64,000 bases of DNA. Origin: Bacteroidota bacterium. Lineage in GTDB: Bacteria > Bacteroidota > Bacteroidia > Bacteroidales > JACABE01. The notes under the pieces are model-generated. The model searched no databases. It was not told where the DNA came from and was given only the letters and a program-made list of their open reading frames with translations. The translations under genes and the position numbers were made by a program. Location: assembly GCA_013377005.1 (NCBI GenBank), contig JACABE010000001.1:149307-213306 (forward strand), read 5' to 3'. Below, one piece after another: positions 1 to 3,188 of the stretch. Each line of letters begins with the position of its first letter. Within the stretch, counting starts at the first letter, position 1.

Positions 1-85
1 TACCATTTAAACCATCAACACCGTTTACTCCGTTCAAACCATTTACTCCGTCTTTGCCATTTGCACCGGCAGGACCTACTGCTCC
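1..85 (-). repeat. Collagen-like Gly-X-Y triplet tract
   Basis: Degenerate 9-nt repeats, each coding a Gly-X-Y triplet, at least nine in a row and continuing past the edge. Asn/Asp and small hydrophobic residues fill X and Y. Such tracts in bacterial lipoproteins usually act as a stalk or linker between the lipid anchor and a surface domain. Confidence 0.7.
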
Positions 86-169
86 TTCTTTAGTACAGGA
101 AACAAAAACTAAACATACTGCTGCAATCATCAATGTAGCAGTAAAAAAGATTTTTTGTAATTTTTTCAT
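1..169 (-). CDS. Lipoprotein with collagen-like Gly-X-Y repeats (partial, runs off left edge)
   Basis: The 5' end of a gene truncated by the window edge; 56 codons are visible. Residues 1-25 form a lipoprotein signal with lipobox VFVSC, lipidated Cys25. From residue 29 the chain is made of Gly-X-Y triplets (GAV, GPA, GAN, GKD, GVN, GLN, GVN, GVD, GLN). The segment GPAGANGKD is identical to one at the N-terminus of the multihaem cytochrome at 1680-3029, although 5 of the 9 codons differ synonymously, so this is an old protein-level resemblance and not a recent copy. The upstream regions are also alike (FNR-type box, -7 element, leader). By analogy the missing part may carry haem motifs; this is inference, as the visible part shows only the signal and linker. 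Confidence 0.8.
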   Translation of the reverse strand, partial: MKKLQKIFFTATLMIAAVCLVFVSCTKEGAVGPAGANGKDGVNGLNGVNGVDGLNG

Positions 170-234: not shown

Positions 235-242
235 CAAATGTA
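235..242 (-). promoter_or_regulatory. Candidate -7 element TACATTTG for the truncated lipoprotein gene
   Basis: Exact match to the Bacteroidota -7 consensus TAnnTTTG on the minus strand, 65 nt before the ATG at 169. No convincing -33 TTG was seen. The FNR-type palindrome at 320-333 lies 88 bp upstream, centre to centre. Confidence 0.5.
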
Positions 243-319
243 GAAAATATATGAATATGATTGTCTGTGCTTAAAGCTGATTTAAATTGACAATACAGTG
301 TAAATTAATCATATTGGCA

Positions 320-333
320 TTGACAAATATCAA
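320..333. promoter_or_regulatory. FNR/CRP-type palindrome TTGAC-AAAT-ATCAA
   Basis: Differs by one base from the classical FNR consensus TTGAT-N4-ATCAA and by the same one base from the site at 3175-3188 (13 of 14 identical, including the spacer). It lies about 157 bp before the start of the collagen-linker lipoprotein gene. A regulator of the CRP/FNR family is the expected binder; none is encoded in this window. Confidence 0.5.
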
Positions 334-528
334 CGCAAATACTTTAAAAGCATTAATATCAGCAATTTAAAAATTAATTAAAAACATCTTTAAATTTATC
401 ACAATTATTTCTTATAAGGAAAACACGAAGCGAAGCCTTACAAACCCCCTTTGTGTTCGTGAAAAAATCATAAAAAATCATAAAAATATTTAATCAATTT
501 AGGAGGTAATTTGTGCGTAAGCTTTTTA

Positions 529-1533
529 TTAAAAAAGATAACTAACCCCTAATACAAAATCAATACCAGATCCATTGGGGCTATAAAGAGCATTGCCAGA
601 TCCTGGATACTTAATATCACTTGATTTGAATTTATAAGTGACATTATAATATTTAAAACCGTAATTCATTAAAATCTTTTTACTCATATTCATTTCAAAA
701 TTCAGACAAGCATGAAACCCAGAAACGTTTTCATATTTCCAGGTATCATCCCAGCCCTCAGAAATCTTACTGCTTTTAATTTGCAATATCGGACTCCAAT
801 AGTAACTATAACCGCCTCCAATTTTAAAACGCATCGTTTCGCCTTTTTTAAAAGGAATTATTAATGAGGGGGTTATAGAAATATAATATCTCTGAAAGGA
901 TGAGCTCGCATTATCCAGATATGGTATTAACATACTATACTGGTAATTTGCATCTATTGCAATATCTAATAATTTATTAACTTCATATCCATATTTAAGA
1001 CCAATACCATAGCCTCCTCCAAAACTTATACATGATTCGTCGCCATTAGCCATTGCAAACATAATAATTTTTGTAAAACCACCACCTATATTAAAATTTA
1101 AACCGATTCTGTGTTGAGGACGGGAAAAGGAAATTTTATTTTCGCTGATTTCTTTCATTGTACTTTTTTTAATTCTTGAACTTGCCATAGCATTATCAAC
1201 CATTAATATTTCCGGTGAATTAGACCAAAATCCTGTGTTAATTCCTAAGCGTATATAATAAGTCTTAGCTGCTTCTGTATTTATTACAATTCTGTTATTT
1301 GTATCATTGTTGACCGAAATTGAATATTTCCCTGGCAAACAATTATATTGGAAATATGAATTATTCATTAATCTTACAATTAAACTATCGTTTGCATAAA
1401 TCTTATAATTGATTAAAGATCCATAATAACTATTTTCACGAAAAATAATTATTTTACTTGTAAGGGTATCGTTACTAAATGAATAATGAGCACAGCCCAA
1501 AAATAAAAAGAGAATGATAAAAATTTTCTTCAT
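529..1533 (-). CDS. Outer membrane beta-barrel protein with N-terminal DUF2846-like domain
   Basis: 334 residues. An N-terminal signal (about residues 1-20) is followed by a small domain (about 25-110) whose pattern, a substrate-like strand then LPGKYSISV, resembles DUF2846-type proteins. The second half (about 140-334) alternates polar and hydrophobic residues, is rich in Gly/Tyr, and ends GVSYLF; the terminal Phe is typical of outer membrane barrels folded by BAM. A Cys at residue 14 in FLGC could make it a lipoprotein, but a signal peptidase I site after SFS is as likely. It is transcribed alone: a -7 element lies at 1560-1567, and the terminator of the gene upstream separates the two. Specific function unknown. 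Confidence 0.75.
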   Translation of the reverse strand: MKKIFIILFLFLGCAHYSFSNDTLTSKIIIFRENSYYGSLINYKIYANDSLIVRLMNNSYFQYNCLPGKYSISVNNDTNNRIVINTEAAKTYYIRLGINTGFWSNSPEILMVDNAMASSRIKKSTMKEISENKISFSRPQHRIGLNFNIGGGFTKIIMFAMANGDESCISFGGGYGIGLKYGYEVNKLLDIAIDANYQYSMLIPYLDNASSSFQRYYISITPSLIIPFKKGETMRFKIGGGYSYYWSPILQIKSSKISEGWDDTWKYENVSGFHACLNFEMNMSKKILMNYGFKYYNVTYKFKSSDIKYPGSGNALYSPNGSGIDFVLGVSYLF

Positions 1534-1559
1534 TTTTATTGATTTAATAAATTGTGTTA

Positions 1560-1567
1560 CAAAATTA
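1560..1567 (-). promoter_or_regulatory. Candidate -7 element TAATTTTG for the beta-barrel gene
   Basis: Exact TAnnTTTG match on the minus strand, 26 nt before the ATG at 1533 and downstream of the terminator of the preceding gene. Confidence 0.45.
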
Positions 1568-1617
1568 AAGATATTTCAATAACAGCAGTTGTTAATTACT
1601 ATATTATGAATTAAATT

Positions 1618-1652
1618 GAAAAAAGGCTGCCTCTTATGAGGCAGCCTTTTTT
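1618..1652 (-). terminator. Intrinsic terminator after the multihaem cytochrome gene
   Basis: Perfect 9-bp GC-rich stem GGCTGCCTC / GAGGCAGCC (1625-1633 and 1638-1646) with a 4-nt loop, flanked by A and T runs, so it can work in both directions. It starts about 28 nt past the stop of the cytochrome gene. Confidence 0.9.
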
Positions 1653-1679
1653 ATTAATAAACAATTTCATTAAGCTATA

Positions 1680-3029
1680 TTAAGGTAATATAGCTAATGT
1701 ATTTGTAAGTAATGCATTTGTATATTTATAATTATGAACACCCAAACTATATTCTCTCAAGCATAATTGGAAATTGATAATAGCTCCCATTTGTGCATTG
1801 GTTAAAGAAATTGCAGGTAATGAGTTATTAGTTGTAATTTGAGCAGCAGTGAAGCCAGTAGTTGATGGGTTTTTGAACATAGTTGTATTATATGTACTAC
1901 CAGTAGGATTATTGACTGGATCATAAATATTCAGGTAACCATCATAATGATTAGCTGTAAGACTGTACCATAAATTAGTTGTGGCATCACCATTTCTGTT
2001 CAGAATTTCAACACCATTTATTTTTAACTTAGAAGCTATTGCTGTGAGTAATGCTTTGATACCAGATTGGTCAGAAACAAAATCAGCATTAGATGCACTC
2101 ATCAAACCACTTGATTGGCCAACTTTGTGACAGGTTGCGTTATTACATCCATTAAAATTACCTTTAGCTTTGAAAGAGTGTCCACCAGCTGCACCGGTCA
2201 TTGGAGCCATGTGGCAATTTTGGCAAGAAGCTGCGGTTGAATGTATAGATTGAGGATAAGGTTGTGTTCCAAATTCAACGCCACCTTTTCCTGCAAAAAT
2301 AGCACCTACAGTACCATAGTGAGTATGAGTTCTGTAACTTGGTTTAAGTACATTTAAAATATTAGAACGTGTAGGACTATAGAAAGTATCATTAGGTAAA
2401 CTTACCAATTGAGCATAGTTCAACACATTTTTATCTTGTCCTGTATTTGATTTAGTAAAAGGACGAGGTTGGTGACATTTTACACATAAATTACTTTTTC
2501 CACCGTCTTGGGTAAGATTAATGGTTTTTGCACCAGCCCACATAGTCATTGGAACAGGAGCAACAGTTGTTAATGGTGTAAAATCAGCATAGCCATAACT
2601 TGTATGTAAGCTACTATGGCAGGTAAAACAACCTAATTTTCCATAAGCTGTGGTAGCTGTTGTCATATAAAGATTGGTGTAAGTAGTATCAGTACCTACT
2701 TTTGCAAAAGTAGCAGGAATATTCATGTTACATACATATTTAAACCCTTCTTGTTCATGACATGGAGCACATGCTGTATTACCTGCTTCTCCATCAGCAG
2801 CTTCTCCAAATTCATGTTTTGATAATTGGAATTGTGTAGCAACGCTATCAACCACTGATGGGTTATGACATAACTTGCAAGTTACAATTGCATCTTTTCC
2901 ATTAGCACCTGCAGGTCCAACAAGACCAATGCCATCATTGCCGTCTTTTGCACATCCGGCTAAAATCATAGATGCAGCTGAAATAATAAGTGCACCTTTA
3001 AAAAACATTTGTAAAAAATTTCTTGTCAT
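1680..3029 (-). CDS. Multihaem c-type cytochrome lipoprotein (six haem motifs)
   Basis: 449 residues. Lipoprotein signal with lipobox LAGC (Cys26), then four Gly-X-Y triplets including GPAGANGKD. Five CXXCH motifs (CKLCH at 51-55, CAPCH, CFTCH, CVKCH, CQNCH) and one CX4CH (CNNATCH) predict six covalently bound haems; extra His residues could be distal ligands. The last third has no haem motif. It was not assignable to a named family such as NrfA, octahaem reductases or decahaem MtrC/OmcA. A role in periplasmic or surface electron transfer is inferred. It is preceded by a -7 element (3092-3099) and an FNR-type palindrome (3175-3188) and followed by a strong terminator, so it is probably transcribed alone. 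CX4CH sites sometimes need a dedicated haem lyase. Confidence 0.9.
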   Translation of the reverse strand: MTRNFLQMFFKGALIISAASMILAGCAKDGNDGIGLVGPAGANGKDAIVTCKLCHNPSVVDSVATQFQLSKHEFGEAADGEAGNTACAPCHEQEGFKYVCNMNIPATFAKVGTDTTYTNLYMTTATTAYGKLGCFTCHSSLHTSYGYADFTPLTTVAPVPMTMWAGAKTINLTQDGGKSNLCVKCHQPRPFTKSNTGQDKNVLNYAQLVSLPNDTFYSPTRSNILNVLKPSYRTHTHYGTVGAIFAGKGGVEFGTQPYPQSIHSTAASCQNCHMAPMTGAAGGHSFKAKGNFNGCNNATCHKVGQSSGLMSASNADFVSDQSGIKALLTAIASKLKINGVEILNRNGDATTNLWYSLTANHYDGYLNIYDPVNNPTGSTYNTTMFKNPSTTGFTAAQITTNNSLPAISLTNAQMGAIINFQLCLREYSLGVHNYKYTNALLTNTLAILP

Positions 3030-3073
3030 TGTAATTGTTTTTTGTTTATATATTTTTTATTACAAAATTTAGT

Positions 3074-3088
3074 TGACTTTTTAAGTCA
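3074..3088. promoter_or_regulatory. Palindrome TGACTT-TTT-AAGTCA at the predicted cytochrome transcription start
   Basis: Perfect 6-bp inverted repeat with a 3-nt spacer, directly downstream of the -7 element at 3092-3099. It could be an operator or a short 5' hairpin in the mRNA. No identical copy was seen elsewhere in the window. Confidence 0.35.
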
Positions 3089-3091
3089 TCA

Positions 3092-3099
3092 CAAAAATA
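3092..3099 (-). promoter_or_regulatory. Candidate -7 element TATTTTTG for the multihaem cytochrome gene
   Basis: Exact TAnnTTTG match on the minus strand, 62 nt before the ATG at 3029; the FNR-type palindrome is centred 86 bp further upstream. Confidence 0.5.
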
Positions 3100-3174
3100 A
3101 TAAGTTTATAAATATGTATTATAAAAAATGGCTGACATTTCTAAACTGTTACGAGAATAACAATCAAAAAAAGA

Positions 3175-3188
3175 TTGATAAATATCAA
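3175..3188. promoter_or_regulatory. FNR-type palindrome TTGAT-AAAT-ATCAA
   Basis: Exact match to the classical FNR box TTGAT-N4-ATCAA, about 152 bp before the multihaem cytochrome start. The near-identical site at 320-333 sits at almost the same distance from a gene with the same N-terminal design. Control by a CRP/FNR-family regulator is inferred. Confidence 0.55.

Follow-up and report, generated by a model that had tools for sequence, protein, structure and literature searches.

Probable FNR-type operators of two hexahaem cytochrome genes and their putative Crp/Fnr regulator in a Bacteroidales genome

The regulator FNR of Escherichia coli recognises the palindrome TTGATN4ATCAA at its target promoters and is marked by the specificity pattern ExxSR in its recognition helix. 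Its promoters usually carry one site, at −61.5 (class I) or −41.5 (class II) (PMC4886647). Nitric oxide (NO)-responsive members of the same Crp/Fnr family such as DNR, NnrR and HcpR are local regulators encoded beside their target reductase genes; the box of DNR is FNR-like, while HcpR2 is reported with GTAACnnnnGTTAC and, in most Bacteroides, with a regulon of hcp only (PMC1274295). The Crp/Fnr members that we found named in the literature on Bacteroidota are HcpR, PgRsp and CrpPg of Porphyromonas. Here we analyse a 64,000-nucleotide stretch (the window; GCA_013377005.1, contig JACABE010000001.1, positions 149,307 to 213,306) of a Bacteroidota bacterium of the order Bacteroidales, in which two FNR-type palindromes (320-333 and 3175-3188) lie before two genes of hexahaem cytochrome lipoproteins. 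These boxes are very probably operators of a dedicated Crp/Fnr regulator encoded elsewhere in the genome (C1:89701-90396), which would most likely activate both hexahaem cytochromes and an operon that begins with a mono-haem lipoprotein.

The source genome is a draft of 3.69 Mb in 92 contigs, and its relatives are mostly uncultured Bacteroidales from freshwater, fen and sediment. Homologues of the hexahaem cytochrome were collected from 98 relatives, from 393 genomes of the order and from GTDB contigs, the latter profile-searched with six close orthologues, and 124 distinct ones, each preceded by 230 nt or more of upstream DNA, were kept. Coordinates such as 320-333 refer to the window, C1, C4 and C13 to contigs of the genome itself (G000), and other G and L labels to the genomes and stretches compared.

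Conservation of the palindrome upstream of cytochrome genes

The window alone cannot decide whether the palindromes exceed chance, as the 14-mer with two mismatches is found seven times in it and 6.96 times are expected, which is the chance level. In the whole genome the strict pattern TTGAY-N4-RTCAA has 53 copies versus 20 for a reversed-pattern control; because most of the 53 lie inside coding sequence, neither the bare 14-mer nor this pattern was retained as a regulon finder, and no large regulon can be drawn from the 14-mer alone. These genome-wide counts cover the strict pattern and an extended motif (exact or with one mismatch). What speaks against chance is the conservation of the box in the upstream regions of orthologues. 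The strict box occurs within 350 nt upstream of the ATG in 69/124 homologues, mostly at 120–200 nt, while nineteen control palindromes made by permuting the same half-site are found in 9, 6, 2 and otherwise 0–1 of these homologues; the lack of conservation upstream of orthologues that would have refuted the initial annotation is not what is observed. Boxes with at least 9/10 matching positions lie between 90 and 240 nt upstream in 77/124 homologues (control mean 2.7, maximum 6), and boxes with at least 8/10 in 98/124, compared with about 28 for the controls. Site density reaches 1.63/kb in the cytochrome upstream regions versus 0.018/kb elsewhere in the same loci, an approximately 90-fold difference. 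Judged by this footprint, the palindromes are real, conserved control sites.

The reading that chance palindromes share a layout solely through a recent duplication of the cytochromes can draw on the two genes being paralogues and on the many such palindromes in the genome, mostly coding. It is already contradicted by the orthologue footprints and can hardly be maintained: the box is conserved across the 124 homologues and dozens of families with fixed phasing and well above the permuted controls, the paralogues share only 28% of their residues, and an unrelated operon, that of the mono-haem lipoprotein, has the same array of sites.

The box as the outermost of three phased sites

For promoter anatomy near-identical promoters were removed, and 39 or 100 non-redundant promoters were kept for the statistics. 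The box consensus of the 39 promoters is A-TTGAT-WTWT-ATCAA-T with an oriented spacer. Downstream of this main box, weaker boxes are enriched at +21/22 (z 5.7/4.2) and at +43 (z 6.0), and shuffled sequences never matched the values observed at +21 and +43. An element resembling TAnnTTTG (at least 5/6 positions) lies 86–88 bp from the box centre in 20 cases among the 39 promoters, where 1.8 are expected; a second peak stands at 109 bp, 22 bp beyond the main one. When the scan is anchored on TAnnTTTG and the box is ignored, the FNR score has its maxima at precisely 87, 66 and 44 bp (z 8.1, 6.6 and 4.6). These alignments place the box at the outer end of a row of three phased sites, whose distances to the −7 element downstream are 44, 66 and 87 bp, with two turns of the DNA from each site to the next, an arrangement that is new here; of the three, the outermost box is the closest to consensus. 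The array is visible in both window promoters, where TGAT stands at +22 and RTCAG at +52. In several relatives (L025, L033, L016 and L028) two near-perfect boxes stand 21 or 42–43 bp apart, versus one strong and two weak boxes, which suggests that box strength moves between array positions in evolution.

TAnnTTTG at −7 is the consensus of Bacteroidetes sigma-ABfr promoters (PMC7366714), and it is present in both window promoters and at a fixed distance in homologues. If the element stands at −7, the three sites would be centred near −51, −73 and −94 relative to the predicted start, and dimers of the regulator bound to them would be aligned along the same side of the helix. The core palindrome is identical to that of E. 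coli FNR promoters; the layout differs in that three boxes, about 21.5 bp apart, lie far upstream of a Bacteroidetes −7 element and have an A/T-rich oriented spacer (ATTGAT-WTWT-ATCAAT), whereas FNR has one site. Far-upstream sites can accompany repression, as does the distal FNR site at −126.5 of ompW (PMC4886647), but here each of the three sites is found on the upstream side of the predicted core promoter, helically phased as for activators, and none overlaps the −7 element, so that repression rather than activation is improbable and the regulator would act as an activator.

The putative Crp/Fnr regulator and its predicted compact regulon

In 76/124 homologues a Crp/Fnr-family gene lies, in tandem or divergently, within 900 bp upstream of the cytochrome, and the strict box is also present in 51 of these 76. 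The genome itself encodes six proteins with a HTH_Crp_2 domain over the cut-off, so that the CRP/FNR-family gene sought in the initial annotation exists. One of them, the 231-amino-acid C1 protein, is encoded 58 kb from the left window gene and joins the cytochrome-adjacent regulators of G002, G003 and L294 in the tree (support 100/100), where the four other full-length paralogues tested fall in a separate clade. Across 98 genomes, the cytochrome and a close regulator occur together in 17, singly in 4 and 5, and 72 have neither (Fisher p 2.7e-11); G001, of the same genus, belongs to those with neither. Membership of the Crp/Fnr superfamily is evident from the domains cNMP_binding (PF00027, E 1.1e-15) and HTH_Crp_2 (PF13545, E 3.2e-11), both over cut-off, and the protein matches solved FNR structures (5cvr, E 3.2e-8). 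Its recognition helix (SKESAIRIIKEL) reads KESAIR, in which the Glu and Arg of FNR are kept and the Ser is lost, and 68/71 cytochrome-adjacent regulators have I or V at this Ser position. FNR proper has four Cys ligands for a [4Fe-4S] cluster; 59/71 of the adjacent regulators have an N-terminal CxxC together with one central Cys, while a third N-terminal Cys varies in place. An iron-sulphur (Fe-S) sensor in the C1 regulator is plausible. The C1 regulator would bind the boxes directly, and low oxygen, redox state or NO may be sensed through an Fe-S cluster. In G043, where the regulator is also unlinked from the cytochrome, a box lies 161 nt before the regulator gene; the genome analysed here likewise has a box at its regulator.

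Several points weigh against this assignment. The strict box is absent from 55/124 homologues. The predicted centres at −51/−73/−94 miss the −61.5/−41.5 of class I/II FNR-dependent promoters. The mono-haem operon promoter (L325 6614-6874, C1:90613-90873) shows the same +21/+43 array as the cytochrome promoters without a TAnnTTTG at 87 bp, its sole such element being at 136 bp and so some 49 bp more distant from the box than those of the cytochromes. The recognition helix of the C1 regulator is ExxIR and departs from the ExxSR of FNR proper. CxxC and the central Cys are equally common in other Bacteroidales Crp/Fnr proteins (65/79) and for this reason do not mark it as an oxygen sensor. Finally, the p-values were obtained after removal of redundant sequences and correct only partly for shared ancestry. 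The initial annotation had spoken of a co-regulated redox-responsive pair; the shared operator is well supported by the data above, and an oxygen or redox signal and a strict FNR identity are hypothetical.

A different member of the six Crp/Fnr proteins might bind the boxes instead. The likeliest is that at C13:46762-47439, whose helix, RESCSR, has the ExxSR pattern of E. coli FNR, and members of this family usually overlap in specificity. This is quite unlikely: orthologues of the C13 protein are not those adjoining the cytochrome in the tree, the congeneric G003 has the cytochrome and the box, yet its best match to the C13 protein reaches only 1.6e-29 at about 29% identity, and G001 has a 93% C13 orthologue without the cytochrome and without a close C1-type regulator. 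Linkage and tree thus downgrade the C13 protein as the binder.

The extended motif ATTGAYWTWTRTCAAT has three exact sites in the 3.69 Mb: one precedes the right cytochrome, one separates the regulator from its divergent operon, and one stands 92 nt upstream of an enoyl-CoA hydratase-like gene. Among the sites with one mismatch are the left cytochrome box, another box at 168 nt ahead of the divergent operon, and one located 120 nt upstream of nuoA. The genes of the divergent operon are those of the mono-haem lipoprotein, of a DUF5777 barrel, of a cytochrome c and of two multihaem-cytochrome b561 fusions. Its homologues neighbour the hexahaem cytochrome in relatives (DUF5777 in 33/44 and the regulator in 37/44 full-length loci); an ancestral cluster therefore appears to be split in this genome, with the operator kept by both parts. 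As predicted from these sites, the regulon is compact and comprises the two hexahaem cytochromes, the regulator and the five-gene electron-transfer operon. The initial annotation had asked for a 14-mer above the chance rate and suggested the start of a larger regulon: rarity holds for the extended motif and not for the bare pattern, and the regulon is real but compact. In contrast to E. coli FNR, this is a local regulator whose gene is linked to that of its putative target; anaerobic-type electron-transfer genes are the targets of FNR and the predicted ones here. Those targets are cytochromes, which also sets the system apart from the hcp-only regulon reported for HcpR2.

The box before nuoA (C4:70468-70483; L041, L310) is the symmetric ATTGATAATTATCAAT, with a divergent YebC-like gene at a distance of 138 nt; the NADH dehydrogenase (nuo) operon is a candidate further regulon member. 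The exact extended box before the enoyl-CoA hydratase/hydroxyacyl-CoA dehydrogenase gene pair is located at C1:137710-137725 (L004, L305).

The hexahaem cytochromes and the putative electron-transfer chain

A recheck of the sequence confirmed the positions previously assigned to the boxes, the TAnnTTTG elements and two 13-nt blocks as well as a lipobox and GPAGANGKD linker in both downstream genes (Table 1). The minus-strand ATGs are at 169 (left gene) and 3029 (right gene); the leaders of 65 and 62 nt described earlier are the distances from the −7 element to the ATG, and the leaders themselves would be a few nt shorter. The 13-nt A/T block (191-203 and 3050-3062), proposed as a shared promoter feature, is nearly intact in one congener (L015) and lost in more distant orthologues; as part of an A/T-rich leader whose conservation ends at the congener, it was rejected as a regulatory element. 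The open reading frame between the cytochromes is on the same strand, and no box of its own was found for it.

Table 1. Promoter elements and genes of the two cytochrome loci in the window
Feature	Position	Strand	Description
Hexahaem cytochrome lipoprotein gene, left, 5' part	1..169	-	447 amino acids; whole gene C1:148132-149475 = L005:4826-6169
Predicted -7 element, left promoter	235..242	-	TACATTTG, TAnnTTTG, 88 bp from box centre
Third box, degenerate, +43, left promoter	277..290	-	Second half-site ATCAG; from offset 43 and 44 bp from -7 element in alignment
Second box, degenerate, +21, left promoter	299..312	-	ATGAT-TAAT-TTACA; from offsets 21/22 and 66 bp from -7 element in alignment
FNR-type box 1, left cytochrome promoter	320..333	-	TTGACAAATATCAA; gene strand TTGATATTTGTCAA; 157 nt upstream of ATG
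Open reading frame between cytochromes	529..1533	-	DUF2846 and outer-membrane barrel-like; outside conserved module as far as tested
Hexahaem cytochrome lipoprotein gene, right	1680..3029	-	449 amino acids, collagen-like GPAGANGKD linker; NrfA/octahaem-reductase-like core
Predicted -7 element, right promoter	3092..3099	-	TATTTTTG, TAnnTTTG, 86 bp from box centre
Third box, degenerate, +43, right promoter	3132..3145	-	Second half-site GTCAG; from array offsets in alignment
Second box, degenerate, +21, right promoter	3154..3167	-	TTGAT-TGTT-ATTCT; from array offsets in alignment
FNR-type box 1, right cytochrome promoter	3175..3188	-	TTGATAAATATCAA; gene strand TTGATATTTATCAA; 152 nt upstream of ATG

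The left gene leaves the window and is complete in the flanking DNA, where it has six CXXCH motifs; in the right gene five CXXCH are joined by one CX4CH. By these haem motifs both window genes, and not just the right one as initially annotated, encode six-haem cytochromes. Against the PDB the hexahaem profile matches NrfA (6v0a, best E 2e-14) and octahaem nitrite reductases, with which the C-terminal haems and an S-x-G-x-HN motif align. From this superfamily the proteins differ by their six haems, their lipoprotein nature, the collagen-like linker and a CxxCH at the position of the catalytic CxxCK of NrfA, so that nitrite reductase activity should not be claimed. An AlphaFold model of the cytochrome had a mean predicted local distance difference test (pLDDT) score of 59 and gave no usable Foldseek match. 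In-frame stops in two homologues (G243:C5:5705-6985 with seven, G210:C1:1701375-1702397 with one) suggest that some lineages are losing the gene.

The similarity to NrfA, together with the binding of a motif like TTGATnnnnATCAA by DNR (PMC1274295), would also fit a Dnr/NnrR-like regulator that senses NO or nitrite instead of oxygen and controls a hexahaem lipoprotein which reduces or detoxifies a nitrogen oxide. This is possible and in our view rather doubtful, as CxxCK is replaced by CxxCH, nitrate or NO genes were not recognised among the conserved neighbours of the cytochrome, and the CxxC and central Cys of the regulator fit Fe-S more than haem, although not uniquely.

Since the b561-linked multihaem protein, the cytochrome c and the barrel share a cluster, the products are most simply read as an envelope electron-transfer chain, which may end at a soluble acceptor or outside the cell. 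Electrons would pass from quinol (b561) through the cytochromes to the NrfA-superfamily outer-membrane lipoprotein. The gene content resembles that of porin-cytochrome conduits of the MtrCAB type, in which a quinol-linked inner-membrane multihaem protein, a soluble cytochrome, a beta-barrel and an outer-membrane lipoprotein cytochrome are encoded together; it differs in that the barrel is DUF5777 and not MtrB and the terminal cytochrome is NrfA-like, and a conduit function would be conjectural. A literature search on DUF5777 with cytochromes, or on porin-cytochrome lipoproteins in Prolixibacteraceae or Bacteroidetes, found nothing relevant.

How Bacteroidota adjust gene expression to oxygen and redox state is poorly described, and the present findings connect a single regulator clade with a single operator, promoter layout and electron-transfer cluster in dozens of families of Bacteroidales from lakes, fens and sediments. 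The three sites two turns apart provide a testable geometry unlike that of E. coli FNR promoters, and the cluster points to an unexplored system of NrfA-like lipoprotein cytochromes. Tentatively, it may represent an undescribed, widespread respiratory pathway of environmental Bacteroidales, in which a quinol-oxidising multihaem-b561 protein would deliver electrons via a cytochrome c and the DUF5777 barrel to an NrfA-superfamily hexahaem outer-membrane lipoprotein, under the control of its own FNR-like regulator cooperating along a helically phased array of three sites.

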